Source: Candidatus Neomarinimicrobiota bacterium
GTDB taxonomy: Bacteria; Fidelibacterota; SORT01
Length of the DNA: 64,000 bases
Direction of reading: 5' to 3'
NCBI GenBank assembly: GCA_022573815.1
Contig: JACZTG010000004.1
Coordinates: forward strand, 62,001 to 126,000
Below the pieces are notes generated by a model. That model ran no database searches. It was not told where the DNA came from and saw only the letters and a list, made by a program, of their open reading frames with translations. This document shows, one piece after another, positions 8,729 through 20,288 of this stretch. Made by a program: the position numbers and the translations under genes. The stretch's first letter is position 1; each line of letters opens with the position of its first letter.

Positions 8729-9523
8729 TTATCTGTGACGTATAACTCGATAAATGGAATATAAGAATCCCGCCTGAAAAGTTGCAAAAGATATTCCTGC
8801 CAGGTTATCGAATTTATCGATTCGATCAGTAAGATATTGTATATCTGCCGGATCAACAGCATCTGATAGGTTATTGAAAGCTTTGTCGGCTTCGAATTTA
8901 AAATAAACCGCCGCAACTCCCGATATAGCGGTAAGGGCATAAGTTGACCGGCTAATCAATTTATCTCTATCGTACCCCATTTTAGCGAAATTCGGAGTAA
9001 TTTCAGTTTCTATTACTGGAGATTCAACAACCAAATTAACACTTATCAATGTTTTTTGATTCATCTCTTCAGGTTCGATTCGTACCGGCATATAATTTCT
9101 CTTAATTAATTCCACAGCTTTGTCGGTTGATTGAAGAACGTAGGGTGTAGTCCCCATAAATTCACCGTTGATGATAACATCCGCACCATACGGAACACTA
9201 TTTAATATTACGAATCGCGTAGGTGTAACCTCAAAATAGTAGGTAGAGTCAGCTGCCAACTCTCCTTTCCAAGTCCAATCTACCGCCGACCATAAGTCAG
9301 ATTCAGAATTCGATGCTCTCAATGAGTGATATCCTGCCGTAACAGATAGAGTATCGACGCGCTGCCGGCTGTATAATGAATCATCAATATAAAATAAAAT
9401 GTCAGATGATTTAGATTTGAATATCAGAGTTGAAAACCCTATAGCTGCGCTTTCGGGGGGATTTGCATATAAATAGCTCTGGCTTACAACAAAAATAAAT
9501 AGTAGCAGGAAATATTTATTCAC
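8729..9523 (-). CDS. PEGA-domain exported protein
   Basis: 264 aa, function unknown. An N-terminal signal peptide (KYFLLLFIFVVSQSYLYA) suggests export. A PEGA-type beta-sandwich is clear around residues 105-155 (VPYGADVIINGEFMGTTPY), and the region before it (IDDSLYSRQRVDTLSVTAGYHSL) looks like a second, diverged copy. A hydrophobic segment follows at about 195-210. The start overlaps the stop of the PQQ-repeat gene by 8 bases, so the two are translationally coupled. PEGA domains are found in surface and envelope proteins. Its place next to an Omp85-type fusion protein suggests an envelope role. Confidence 0.75.
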   Translation of the reverse strand: MNKYFLLLFIFVVSQSYLYANPPESAAIGFSTLIFKSKSSDILFYIDDSLYSRQRVDTLSVTAGYHSLRASNSESDLWSAVDWTWKGELAADSTYYFEVTPTRFVILNSVPYGADVIINGEFMGTTPYVLQSTDKAVELIKRNYMPVRIEPEEMNQKTLISVNLVVESPVIETEITPNFAKMGYDRDKLISRSTYALTAISGVAAVYFKFEADKAFNNLSDAVDPADIQYLTDRIDKFDNLAGISFATFQAGFLYSIYRVIRHR

Positions 9524-10682
9524 TTATTGCACCTGCTTCTGAAAACGCATATACGAATTTATCTTCCGTTCCGATGAATATATTACCATTATATTCTAAC
9601 GGTGATGTTCTGATTCTTCCGTCAAGCAATACGGACCATATTACTTCGCCGGTATCTTTATTTATAGAGTAAAATTTTCGATTCAGAGACCCGATATAGA
9701 TATATTGCCCTGACACAAGCATTCCTATACTTAGAGGGTCCAATAAATCTTGCTCCCAAATTCCGACTCCATCAGTAATTGAAATCTTATAAAGCATACC
9801 GCTAGCTGTTGCGGAATATACCGCATCATCATCAACCGACGCAGTAGCATAAAAACTTCCTTTTCCGGAAAATGACCAATTTAATTTACCGGATTCTGCA
9901 TTAATCGAGAAAAATTGTCCGAGCAAATTACCAACATAAACATTACCATTATAAACTACCGGTGTTGACATAATGGCTTTGCCTGTTTCATATTTCCATT
10001 TGAGTTCCCCTGTGGAAGCTGAGAGTCCATACACATTGCCGGAGTCATTTGCGGCGATTATGAGTCCCTCCCATCTTACAGGCGTGCCGCGAAACGGCCT
10101 GTTACTTCTGAATCTCCACTTCTCGGTGCCTGTTTCCAAATCAAGGCAATATAGATTTCCATTAACAGAAGTGACATAAAGCAAGCCCCCTGAAACCAAC
10201 GGCATAGATTCCACAGGACCGATATTTTTTTTCCAGGCATATCTCCCTTTATCCAATTGATAACCAAAGATCGAATTATCGTTTGAAATGCTGCCGAAAT
10301 ATCCGTTATTGCCGTCTAATGCCATTCCGTATCCAATGGAATGGTCTAATTTAATAGAACTTATTTTAATTCCCGTAGAATAGTTAAGCACAATGATTTT
10401 ACCTGCCATTGTTGTAACGAATATATTCCCCATTGCGGCTGTCATATAGCCGGTAGGCGTTCTCTCAACACCGGTCTTCCACAATTGTTTTAACGGAGGT
10501 GTCACTTCCTTGATAGCGTTTTGATTGTGCTGAGCATTACCTCCAAGTTGAGTCCATTCAGATTTCTTAAATTTTGAAGAAACATCAAAAATCTTAATAT
10601 TTCCGGAACAGCTAAATATTATGACCAACGACAGTAGTAAGAAGATTATAAATTTACGATACAATTTAGAAATCCCAACCAA
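9516..10682 (-). CDS. PQQ-repeat beta-propeller lipoprotein (BamB-like fold)
   Basis: 388 aa. A hydrophobic leader ending in IIFSC (Cys25) looks like a lipoprotein signal, though Phe at -2 is not textbook. The rest is a series of about seven blades with the PQQ pattern: repeated GxLYCLDxETGxxxWxF-like elements such as YCLDLETGTEKWRF and YGLSASTGELKWKY. This fold is shared by BamB, the lipoprotein of the outer-membrane assembly machine, and by quinoprotein dehydrogenases. No dehydrogenase residues are evident. The gene overlaps the Omp85-fusion gene by 17 bases upstream and the PEGA gene by 8 bases downstream. A scaffolding role for the neighbouring barrel protein is a reasonable guess, not shown. 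Confidence 0.78.
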   Translation of the reverse strand: MVGISKLYRKFIIFLLLSLVIIFSCSGNIKIFDVSSKFKKSEWTQLGGNAQHNQNAIKEVTPPLKQLWKTGVERTPTGYMTAAMGNIFVTTMAGKIIVLNYSTGIKISSIKLDHSIGYGMALDGNNGYFGSISNDNSIFGYQLDKGRYAWKKNIGPVESMPLVSGGLLYVTSVNGNLYCLDLETGTEKWRFRSNRPFRGTPVRWEGLIIAANDSGNVYGLSASTGELKWKYETGKAIMSTPVVYNGNVYVGNLLGQFFSINAESGKLNWSFSGKGSFYATASVDDDAVYSATASGMLYKISITDGVGIWEQDLLDPLSIGMLVSGQYIYIGSLNRKFYSINKDTGEVIWSVLLDGRIRTSPLEYNGNIFIGTEDKFVYAFSEAGAISE

Positions 10683-13566
10683 AGAAAAATTGTTTATAGA
10701 TAGTATCAGGCCATTTTCTAAAACTGGTTCTTCTTCCTATATCGTAGCGGAGAACGAGAAAGCCGCCTATTCTCATTCTAAATCCGATTCCATAACTTCC
10801 TTTTGTTTCTTCCCATTCTTTTCTAAATAATTCACCGTTATAAACATTCCCAACATCAAAGAACAGCGCTCCTCTAATTCCTCTAAATCCAATAGTGCCG
10901 AACGGAAACTTTACTGCCATCTGATCAATAAACGGAAAGCGATATTCATTGTTTATCACATATGCACGGGTACCCCAAATCCTGAACCGTGGATAAAGAC
11001 GGAGAGTCCATGAACCTCCAATATAAAATCGTCGTATTTCTCTGTCAGGATTTCCTTCGCTGTGCATATACATGAATCGAACAGCAAAAGAAGTGCTATT
11101 TGACAATCGATAATATTTCCTATAATCTGCCACCAAAGAGTAATAGTTCAGGTTACTGAATCTTACATCATTTGTGTACGCAATTGACAGGCTAATTCTC
11201 TGGCCGTCCAATGGACCGGAAGGTCCCCAAAGCGAATTATCCTTAACGTATCTGACAGAATTCACCGCTAACCAAGCCTCTCTGCTGTCACCGTCGAACC
11301 TGTCTTTTAAGGAATAACTTAAGCTTGTGGAAGCCTCTATTCTTTGAAAGAATGAAAGCGGGTAAGATACTGATAGAAAGCCGCCTATACGCTTTTCATC
11401 AAAAAACCCTTCATGTAAATTAAATAGCCTGTTGTTGAGGTTGAAACCTCCGTAAGCAATATTTGTTCTTCCTGCTAATGATATTTTTGTAATGGCAACA
11501 TTGAAGCTGTTTAGGAAATCACTCGATGTACGAGCATTATTATATATAACTATGTAATACTGGTTATTTCCCAAGATATCCGAAAACGCAAGAGCTGCTC
11601 CGCCGCTTGTCCCAAATATTGGATCCTGCGATACCTGACTTTGAGCGATGTCTAAAGAATAACCGCTTTTATATTTTTTGGATATCTTTGTTATATCTTT
11701 TTCAATTTTATGATGATTCCACAAATTGACTCGACTGAATTTCATATTTTGTTTATCAATCGATGTGGGAAATGTTGAGAAATTAGCAATTTTCATAATT
11801 TTGAAACTGAAATCTTCAAATGCCGCAAAGACTAACGAATTTTCATCTGACCAGACCGGATCCATCGCGGAAGTAGTAAAGTTTGTTACCCGAACTGCCT
11901 GATAATCCTTTAAATTATTTTTTGATTCATAAGTATTATCTACACTTTTCAGAGAAACGTTAGTCAGGTCATAATTATCATTACTCTTCGTTTCTTTTAG
12001 TAGCCAGATATTATTCATTCCGCCACGATCAGAAAAGAAAACAATTTTGCCGTCATTAGAATATTTGGGCGCGCGATCGTTAAAATTACCATATGTCAGA
12101 TATCGTACATTCAGAGTTTGAATCTCAATCTTAAATAGATTATACTTTCCGTGGTCACCCGTCATTGTTCTGTCAGACGAAAATGCGATATATTTACTAT
12201 CAGGAGACCACGAGGGATCCCTATCATCATAAACATCATTTGTCAATTTCAGAAGATTTTCAGTAGTTGTGTCATATACATATATATCATTAAATCCCAT
12301 CCGTGAAAGGCCGGTAAATGCTATTCTCTCTCCGTCCGGAGACCAGGAAGGCGAGGAAATAGTAACCAATTCTTTGAAGGATATAGTCGGCAGAAGTTCT
12401 TTATTGTCCAAGTTCAGCCTATGAATAACGTCTGTCTCGCCGCTTTTGGTAACAAATGTGAGAATCCTATTATCATTGACATCAATTGAAGATCTGAAAA
12501 GGTGAAATGTTTCGAAATCACTGGTTTTTTCTCCAACGAGTATCTCTTCAGATTCCATTTTTGCTTTACTATCAAACGGTTTCTGATAAATCCCTGAATA
12601 ACCTTTCTTATTACTTACATAAATTATGTTTTTTCTTCCGTCTTTGTCTGTATATACGGCGGGTTTAGAATTAAAGCCTTTCTGATCGACGATCGAAGAT
12701 GCCATCTGGGGTTTGTCTTTATCCTCTAATAGGGGATAATACTTTTTCTTAAGAGAATATAGCCACTGCTTACTCAGTTCCGTATAGCTCACGCCCAATA
12801 CGTATTCAGCTACTTGTGAAAACCTGGGATATACCCATATATTTTCCAATATAAGTAAGATTTTCTCATCGCCGTATCTTTCTGCGATAAACGAAAGTAA
12901 ATTCTCACCCTCTTTGTACATCAAATAACTTCCGGCTATAGTATAAAGCCTTTCAACAGGAACGATATAATTGTTAAGCACGGCATCCCTGATAACCATT
13001 TCAGCCTGAGTATCCGAGTCACCGGACCAATATTCTGCTAAACCCTCTGAAAACCATAATGGAGGAAAACGTGGATTGAATATCTTATGATTTTTATTAA
13101 CGCGATTGACCTTTCCATGCATAAATACATGATTAAGCTCGTGGCGAATTACCCTTTTGAATTGACTGATAGAGCCATCGCTCGGAATAACAACCCGTCC
13201 CTTGAAAAATTCGAAAAACCCTCCCACTCCTTCAGGCAGTAAGTTCGGGATTACATTAGTTTGCTGGAAATATAGATGAGAGCTGTAAAATATTAGCGGC
13301 ACTTTATAATTAAGAGAATGATTATACCTATTCTTCAGGACATCGTAAGATTCTTCAGCATACTGCGCTCCTATGAGAGCAAGATCCTCCATTTCCGCAT
13401 TATAATAAATATCGAAATGATCTGTTGACATTACCTGCCAATCAAATTCGGTATATTGTATTTTGTTTCTGCCGAATGAATGGTATTGAGCAAAAGCGGT
13501 TGCACTGCTCAGCATTAAAACGCAAAGAACGATGACCAAATTTATCTTATTAAAGTGAAATATCAA
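10666..13566 (-). CDS. Metallopeptidase / TolB-like propeller / Omp85 barrel fusion
   Basis: 966 aa, three modules in one chain. After a signal peptide (cleavage near residue 26) comes a gluzincin-type peptidase domain with HELNH at 142-146 and the downstream glutamate in WFSEGLAEYW (Glu174), as in peptidase MA families. Residues about 400-620 hold PD40/TolB-type propeller repeats (PSWSPDGERIAF, PSWSPDSKYIAF, APKYSNDGKIVFF). The last ~290 residues look like an Omp85/surface-antigen beta-barrel, with a GGSWTLRLYP...NNEYRFPF pattern and a C-terminal phenylalanine, the usual outer-membrane insertion signal. It should sit in the outer membrane with the peptidase and propeller in the periplasm. 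Substrate unknown. First of three overlapping genes. Confidence 0.82.
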   Translation of the reverse strand: MIFHFNKINLVIVLCVLMLSSATAFAQYHSFGRNKIQYTEFDWQVMSTDHFDIYYNAEMEDLALIGAQYAEESYDVLKNRYNHSLNYKVPLIFYSSHLYFQQTNVIPNLLPEGVGGFFEFFKGRVVIPSDGSISQFKRVIRHELNHVFMHGKVNRVNKNHKIFNPRFPPLWFSEGLAEYWSGDSDTQAEMVIRDAVLNNYIVPVERLYTIAGSYLMYKEGENLLSFIAERYGDEKILLILENIWVYPRFSQVAEYVLGVSYTELSKQWLYSLKKKYYPLLEDKDKPQMASSIVDQKGFNSKPAVYTDKDGRKNIIYVSNKKGYSGIYQKPFDSKAKMESEEILVGEKTSDFETFHLFRSSIDVNDNRILTFVTKSGETDVIHRLNLDNKELLPTISFKELVTISSPSWSPDGERIAFTGLSRMGFNDIYVYDTTTENLLKLTNDVYDDRDPSWSPDSKYIAFSSDRTMTGDHGKYNLFKIEIQTLNVRYLTYGNFNDRAPKYSNDGKIVFFSDRGGMNNIWLLKETKSNDNYDLTNVSLKSVDNTYESKNNLKDYQAVRVTNFTTSAMDPVWSDENSLVFAAFEDFSFKIMKIANFSTFPTSIDKQNMKFSRVNLWNHHKIEKDITKISKKYKSGYSLDIAQSQVSQDPIFGTSGGAALAFSDILGNNQYYIVIYNNARTSSDFLNSFNVAITKISLAGRTNIAYGGFNLNNRLFNLHEGFFDEKRIGGFLSVSYPLSFFQRIEASTSLSYSLKDRFDGDSREAWLAVNSVRYVKDNSLWGPSGPLDGQRISLSIAYTNDVRFSNLNYYSLVADYRKYYRLSNSTSFAVRFMYMHSEGNPDREIRRFYIGGSWTLRLYPRFRIWGTRAYVINNEYRFPFIDQMAVKFPFGTIGFRGIRGALFFDVGNVYNGELFRKEWEETKGSYGIGFRMRIGGFLVLRYDIGRRTSFRKWPDTIYKQFFFGWDF

Positions 13567-19275: not shown

Positions 19276-20288
19276 TTAGCCTAATCTATCTAAATAAATC
19301 CTTTCAACTCTATCTCCCCAACTTTCTACCGAATAATATTCTTTTATCTTTATTCGAGCAGTATTACCCATCTTTTTGCGGAGATTAGCAGAGCCGATTA
19401 AAGTATTTAATTTTTCGATCCATTCTTTATCAGACTTTACCAAATACCCATTCTCTGCGTTTGTAATAACAGAAGCATTAGCCCCACGTCGGAAGCAATA
19501 ACAGGTAATCCCGCTGCCATATATTGAATTATCTTAATAGCACATTTCCCTTTGCTCCATTCGTCATCTTTCAACGGCATTATTCCTATATCCATCTGAT
19601 AGAGATGACTCTTATAGTCATTAATATCCCACTTTATATTGACTATATTAATTCCCTTTGTTTCATAAGGTTTATCTGATATTACTTTAAGTATTACTTC
19701 GGGGCTATTTGTAGATATTTCAATGAATACTTTTTGCAATTCCTCTAAATATACCTGGTTATTCGATTGACCTATCCAGCCGATAGTAATAACTTCTTTA
19801 TCGTTTTTTCTTTGATAATCGTAATCTGAAAATTTTACTGTTGTTGGAACCACTCTGACATTATTGTTAAATTTTGTTGCGAATTTTGCGAAATGTTCAT
19901 TACCGGCTATCACTGTTTTCGCGGATCTAAGTACATATTTTAGTCGCCTTACGGTTTTAGGAGAGCCATTGCCAATCGCAGATAATTTCTTTGAAAACGA
20001 ATCTCTGGCGTAAAGCGCATCATTAAAATCGTAAATAATGTTTTTATTCAGACTTTTAATCATAAATAGAAACGGTCTTGAGAATAATTTTTTTTGTATA
20101 TGCACAATTTTTACAGAAAGAACTTTTTTCAATATAGAAACGAATTTTTTAAATCGAATGTGTCTCGCATAAATCCATTCTGCTTTCCATCCGTTGTCAT
20201 TTAAATAATTCACCCATTGCATGCGCGATATCGAGTGCTTGCGCCATCTCTCTTCATCTGAGTGATGATCTTTGATTATACGTTTCAA
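19276..20288 (-). pseudogene. GT4-type glycosyltransferase with a 1-base frameshift
   Basis: The open frame from 20288 ends at 19437 with a non-family tail (LMLLLLQTQRMGIW) just after the donor-site motif YMAAGLPVIASDVG. Adding one G to the GGGG run (CCCC at 19482-19485 on plus) restores GANASVITNAENGYLV and a normal C-terminus that runs to a TAA at 19276-19278, for a full protein of about 337 aa. So the gene is either truly broken or there is a homopolymer sequencing error. Otherwise it is a normal GT4-like enzyme (IGWIGQSNNQVYLEEL). It overlaps the upstream GT4 gene by 35 bases. Without the last 70 residues, activity is doubtful. Confidence 0.8.

Follow-up and report, generated by a model that had tools for sequence, protein, structure and literature searches.

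Whether a zinc protease, a TolB-like propeller and an Omp85 barrel can belong to one protein, and what such a protein would do in the cell envelope, are the questions raised by a long open reading frame in the window analysed here (the whole stretch of 64,000 nucleotides from contig JACZTG010000004.1 of a Candidatus Neomarinimicrobiota bacterium). A previous sequence-only reading of this DNA had proposed that the three parts, normally found on separate envelope proteins, are joined in a single chain acting as an outer-membrane protease/assembly factor, which would select, cut or insert its substrate as one unit.

One chain with three domains

The gene (Table 1) is a minus-strand ORF running from 13566 to 10666, with 966 codons, a TTG start and no internal stops, and its orthologues in independent genomes are full-length and collinear, with 37-74% identity; one orthologue copy (L018) is damaged by a stop and Ns. 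Two genes, or a frameshift, are ruled out by this single open frame and by the collinear orthologues. Thus, the single chain is borne out, and the coordinates and the numbering of His142, His146 and Glu174 previously given match the ORF exactly. Reading of the N-terminus indicates a Sec-type signal peptide without a lipobox, and in the alignment the hydrophobic stretch ending in A-Q is kept in most orthologues. At the other end, the C-terminal Phe noted earlier is present in a GWDF terminus compatible with the C-terminal signal of outer-membrane proteins; among the complete rows of clade A (the clade of the window protein, see below) and clade B in the alignment, all but one finish with F, Y or W.

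Table 1. Position of the gene, of the parts of its product and of the neighbouring gene in the window
Feature	Position	Strand	Basis or remark
Protease-propeller-Omp85 gene, clade A, 966 aa	10666..13566	-	Open frame and family alignment
Sec-type signal peptide, residues 1-26, ...ATAFA/QYHSFG (slash, cleavage), Gln at +1	13489..13566	-	Sequence reading
Peptidase MA (gluzincin) domain, residues 43-278	12733..13440	-	PF13485, AF2, Foldseek
HELNH zinc motif, residues 142-146	13129..13143	-	Invariant H142, E143, H146
Glu174, predicted third zinc ligand, in WFSEGLAE	13045..13047	-	28 residues after H146
TolB-like PD40 beta-propeller, residues 290-596	11779..12699	-	PD40 profile; TolB by sequence and fold
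Omp85 barrel, residues 630-966	10669..11679	-	PF01103 and Foldseek to BamA barrels
L6 position, residues 856-858 RLY; clade A relatives RG(Y/W)	10993..11001	-	Alignment
BamB-like PQQ propeller lipoprotein, next gene, predicted partner	9516..10664	-	PF13360, BamB folds, conserved adjacency

When the chain was scanned in three thirds by hmmscan against curated Pfam cut-offs, the three proposed domains were all recovered: Peptidase_MA_2 (PF13485) in the N-terminal third (37.2 bits, cut-off 32.4), PD40 in the middle third (77.9 bits, cut-off 20.9) and Omp85 (PF01103) in the C-terminal third (40.9 bits, cut-off 24; 41.1 bits in a genome-wide PF01103 search). The Pfam scan of the whole chain had missed Omp85, which was probably a filter effect, reversed by the scan of the C-terminal third. 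Neither POTRA domains nor PF00149, a calcineurin-type metallophosphatase family, were matched by Pfam in the whole chain or in its thirds, and the propeller and the barrel lie too close together to leave room for a POTRA. In NCBIfam, the protein gives partial matches to TolB and to an Omp85 family, far under the equivalog or subfamily cut-offs, and no dedicated Pfam or NCBIfam model was found for the protease-propeller-Omp85 family.

Structural models agree with these assignments, matching gluzincin proteases, TolB and BamA barrels, respectively. The protease domain modelled alone with AF2 reaches a pLDDT of 79, above that of the full-chain model, and matches by Foldseek the peptidase domains of M9 collagenases and M1 aminopeptidases (best E 1.5e-4, TM-score 0.62 to the query), so that on this model the domain is of gluzincin fold; a PDB sequence search with the protease profile returned weak collagenase matches only. 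Both M9 and M1 enzymes share with the window protease the gluzincin fold and an HExxH motif with a downstream Glu, whereas identity is about 10-15% and their additional domains are different. Collagenase G has the same 28-residue spacing. The propeller is related to TolB by sequence (7e-12) and by fold (1e-12, Foldseek), and the barrel to BamA barrels (Foldseek on the full-chain model, from 9e-10). About 15 strand segments, against the 16 expected for Omp85, are seen between residues 657 and 964, a region in which the pLDDT is near 60. Confidence in the full-chain AlphaFold model is modest (pLDDT 64, pTM 0.51), and the packing of the domains against each other is therefore not readable from it.

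Distribution and conservation of the family

Relatives of the protein were found in 61/61 genomes of the window's phylum, in 99/99 genomes of the phylum to which a Zixibacteria genome belongs, and in 171/297 genomes of a Bacteroidota/Ignavibacteria sample (the phylum of an Ignavibacteria genome). These surveys rule out a lineage-specific oddity and, carried out among FCB genomes as had been suggested, reveal a widespread architecture; the idea that the parts normally reside on separate proteins finds no support, since the fused form, usually in two copies, is the normal one in the window's phylum, in Zixibacteria and in much of the Bacteroidota/Ignavibacteria sample. A housekeeping role in the envelope would agree with its occurrence in all the genomes sampled from two phyla. 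The family comprises two old paralogues, A (the window protein) and B, each with the three domains and often both present in a surveyed genome; in the genome under study, the clade B paralogue has 1045 aa. Trees built separately from protease, propeller and barrel all split A from B with 99-100% support, and the domain fusion is therefore older than the A/B duplication. This duplication would predate the surveyed phyla or, alternatively, would have spread early.

The same genome encodes a more distant relative of 988 aa (type C), with a weak protease score and no Omp85 match. Proteins of this type, of about 1000 aa, combine an HEFTH/HEFSH protease-like region with PD40 (G000:C1, about 119000-128500, L074). 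In six genomes, the type C gene follows a PorV-family gene and/or a gene whose product has a T9SS tail and looks like an inactivated M6 protease; it lies two genes before BamD, with NadD next (L074, L144, L147, L149, L151, L152); in L147, a short contig, PorV falls outside. This setting hints at a connection of these proteins with both type IX secretion and BAM. The genome also encodes a free-standing peptidase MA protein of about 305 aa (68.6 bits; G000:C2:82296-83210, L082), and the gene that follows appears to encode a PorV-type protein.

Conservation was analysed in an alignment of 46 sequences, 25 from clade A and 21 from clade B, in which H142, E143, H146, W171, E174 and G175 are invariant (46/46). 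Just 53 columns are invariant (22 in the protease, 25 in the barrel and 6 in the PD40 region, the least conserved part), and since all four catalytic or ligand positions are among them, conservation of the zinc site is not attributable to chance. The single intact zinc site recognised in the window protein is shared by the 46 aligned sequences. Had the enzyme been lost, scatter should be visible at the zinc-site positions; none is seen, which favours a working enzyme, as do the invariant ligands and catalytic Glu of both clades. The same data bear on the proposal that the protease fold serves as a binding module, with propeller and barrel tethering envelope parts in Tol-Pal-like or BAM-BAM contacts. 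The TolB-like nature of the propeller and the low conservation of its PD40 region would suit such a scaffold, as would the gene beside type C, whose resemblance to a family of inactivated M6 proteases suggests that dead proteases may occur in related loci. However, an HExxH motif and Glu174 unvaried in two old paralogues are not expected of a dead enzyme, and we regard the scaffold as improbable, the least probable of the explanations considered here.

The barrel has changed at one diagnostic place. At L6, the Arg is present in 46/46 sequences and the Gly in 42/46, Leu appearing solely in the four genomes of the window's own family, so that the signature (V/I)RG(F/Y) becomes LRLY in the window protein and three close relatives. 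Taking into account this replacement and the missing POTRA, insertase activity should not be assumed for the window's barrel. That the L6 Gly has been lost while the protease site is invariant suggests that the barrel can lose insertase features, as would be the case if it were an anchor only for a maturation protease that, at the outer membrane, cleaves exported lipoproteins or secreted proteins at specific sites. The location of type C, at several loci, between BamD and a T9SS-type protein with PorV would also agree with this explanation. Nevertheless, no substrate gene travels with clade A, whose constant neighbour is BamB-like, and the barrel is conserved like the protease (25 vs 22 invariant columns), and a maturation protease is therefore considered unlikely.

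Genomic setting and other Omp85 proteins

The gene following the window's protease-propeller-Omp85 gene has a likely TTG start one base past the upstream stop and a lipobox (IIFS-C), and its product matches PF13360 (PQQ_2) with 136.6 bits and BamB structures with 1e-22; its score against the BamB equivalog TIGR03300 (167 bits) is under the cut-off of 285. It is the sole protein of the genome above the PQQ_2 cut-off and so its one BamB candidate. A BamB-like gene follows clade A in 49/53 loci, usually without a gap (25/26 loci in a first set, two of which run into a contig end, and 24/27 in the second), and was found at 0/11 clade B loci. Because the common family is nearly always encoded beside this BamB-like lipoprotein, the protein probably helps to build or quality-check the outer membrane, although conserved adjacency by itself is not proof of contact.

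The remaining flanks of clade A vary by phylum, with MeaB and TatC in the window's family and phosphoglucose isomerase and a Crp regulator in Ignavibacteria. A link to LolD or another ABC system through the recurrent Ignavibacteria neighbour was discarded, this gene encoding the Crp-type regulator. A PEGA-domain protein is encoded after the BamB-like gene (window 8729-9523), similar short proteins lie at this place in several relatives, and it is a possible third member of the unit. In three Ignavibacteria loci (L100, L101, L105), clade B is preceded by a putative RNase R gene and by a gene for a large protein; this protein matches TamB with 76.8 bits in L105 and stays under the cut-off in L101. 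Elsewhere in the window (about 19437-19560, minus strand), the ORF of a group 1 glycosyltransferase stops prematurely, and the part that should come next can be read in a different frame, apparently because of a frameshift or an assembly error.

Other Omp85 proteins are encoded in this genome. A canonical BamA, with four POTRA hits, is located in a skp-lpx cluster (G000:C7), TamA adjoins a TamB-sized gene, and a separate gene of G000:C2, named from its sequence, encodes a PlpD-like protein of 820 aa. The canonical BamA rules out the 966-aa protein as the BamA of the cell, and a TIGR02800 score of 96 bits against a cut-off of 343 rules it out as TolB. Thus, the likeness of propeller to TolB, of barrel to BamA and of the downstream product to BamB does not mean orthology of the 966-aa protein to TolB or BamA, the several POTRA and the skp-lpx setting of BamA being features of the G000:C7 gene and not of the window gene.

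Comparison with known systems and proposed role

Fusions of a propeller to an Omp85 barrel were named WD40-Omp85 by Heinz and Lithgow in 2014 and likened to a BamA-BamB fusion; like the window protein, they have a TolB-like propeller, then the barrel, and no POTRA (PMC4104836), and subfamilies lacking POTRA were already recognised there. The text of that paper describes for WD40-Omp85 neither a protease or peptidase MA domain nor a conserved BamB-like neighbour. Its 'Metallo' subfamily also has an enzyme fused to the barrel but is defined by PF00149 and has no propeller (PMC4104836), in contrast to the peptidase MA domain and propeller found here. The WD40-like and metalloprotease Omp85 subfamilies were still considered not well characterised in 2024 (PMC11116518). 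A literature search combining peptidase MA, PD40 and outer membrane returned nothing, and the papers searched yielded neither a description of the added protease nor a tested function for the protease-propeller-Omp85 family. To the known picture, this analysis adds an intact, strictly conserved protease domain, two old paralogues and a BamB-like partner gene.

In well-studied cases, the soluble N-terminal domains of Omp85 barrels are periplasmic. PlpD, a patatin-Omp85 protein with a lipase domain, one POTRA and no propeller, resembles the window protein in having an N-terminal enzyme and a C-terminal barrel, and its enzyme domain, once thought to be exported, has been shown to stay in the periplasm (PMC11116518). 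This precedent and Omp85 topology favour placing the window protease on the periplasmic side. The alternative is an autotransporter-like protein whose barrel carries protease and propeller outside, to digest or process external or surface proteins, an arrangement like that originally suggested for PlpD (type Vd) and agreeing with the secreted nature of the M9 collagenases, the nearest fold. However, transport would have to begin without a POTRA, a folded propeller is bulky and unlikely to pass through a pore of 16 strands, the known counterparts of the BamB-like neighbour are periplasmic and PlpD itself keeps its enzyme in the periplasm (PMC11116518), so that we give the surface protease little credit.

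POTRA domains are used by the BAM and TAM barrels for clients and partners. The explanation that we prefer, at roughly even odds, is an outer-membrane factor without POTRA, which would use its protease and propeller in the periplasm to check or cut outer-membrane clients together with the BamB-like partner. The 966-aa protein would be exported by Sec and its signal peptide cleaved, the C-terminal barrel would be placed in the outer membrane, and protease and propeller, judging from Omp85 topology, would be periplasmic. Propeller and BamB-like lipoprotein would then form a docking surface in the usual place of the POTRA, and the zinc protease, beside the mouth of the barrel, would cut outer-membrane clients that have folded wrongly or require trimming, much as BepA, a free protein, does at the BAM complex of E. 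coli; the barrel would anchor the unit and may help insertion. In this scheme, we infer topology, protease activity, client type and contact with BamB or BAM.

A functional analogue is BepA, an M48 metallopeptidase of E. coli which acts as a periplasmic zinc protease on clients at BAM, where it directs LptD (PMC8423444); unlike the window protein, it is a separate soluble protein of another peptidase family, with no barrel. This precedent and the BamB-like partner favour a factor for outer-membrane quality control or assembly. Several observations count against it. POTRA is absent from the window protein; E. coli BamB binds POTRA-3 (PMC13067283), a mode of binding that would not account for the predicted BamB contact. 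The window's lineage no longer has the Gly of L6, the peptidase is nearest to M9/M1 and not to the M48 BepA, and clade B is without the BamB neighbour. Of the earlier proposal of an outer-membrane protease/assembly factor, the link to assembly is thus strengthened by the conserved BamB-like neighbour, whereas a full BamA-type insertase is argued against by the lack of POTRA and the changed L6 signature of this lineage.

All the genomes sampled from two phyla, and over half of a large Bacteroidota sample, carry the family. Its conserved partner gene provides a lead, by which binding of a BamB-like lipoprotein to a POTRA-less Omp85 protein becomes testable, as does the possibility that an Omp85 protein has a protease-based quality control for outer-membrane proteins built into it. 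More tentatively, many FCB bacteria may possess, beside BAM and TAM, a further outer-membrane machine based on Omp85, with a zinc protease and a propeller in place of the POTRA and a BamB of its own, and which would unite proteolytic checking and insertion in one chain.
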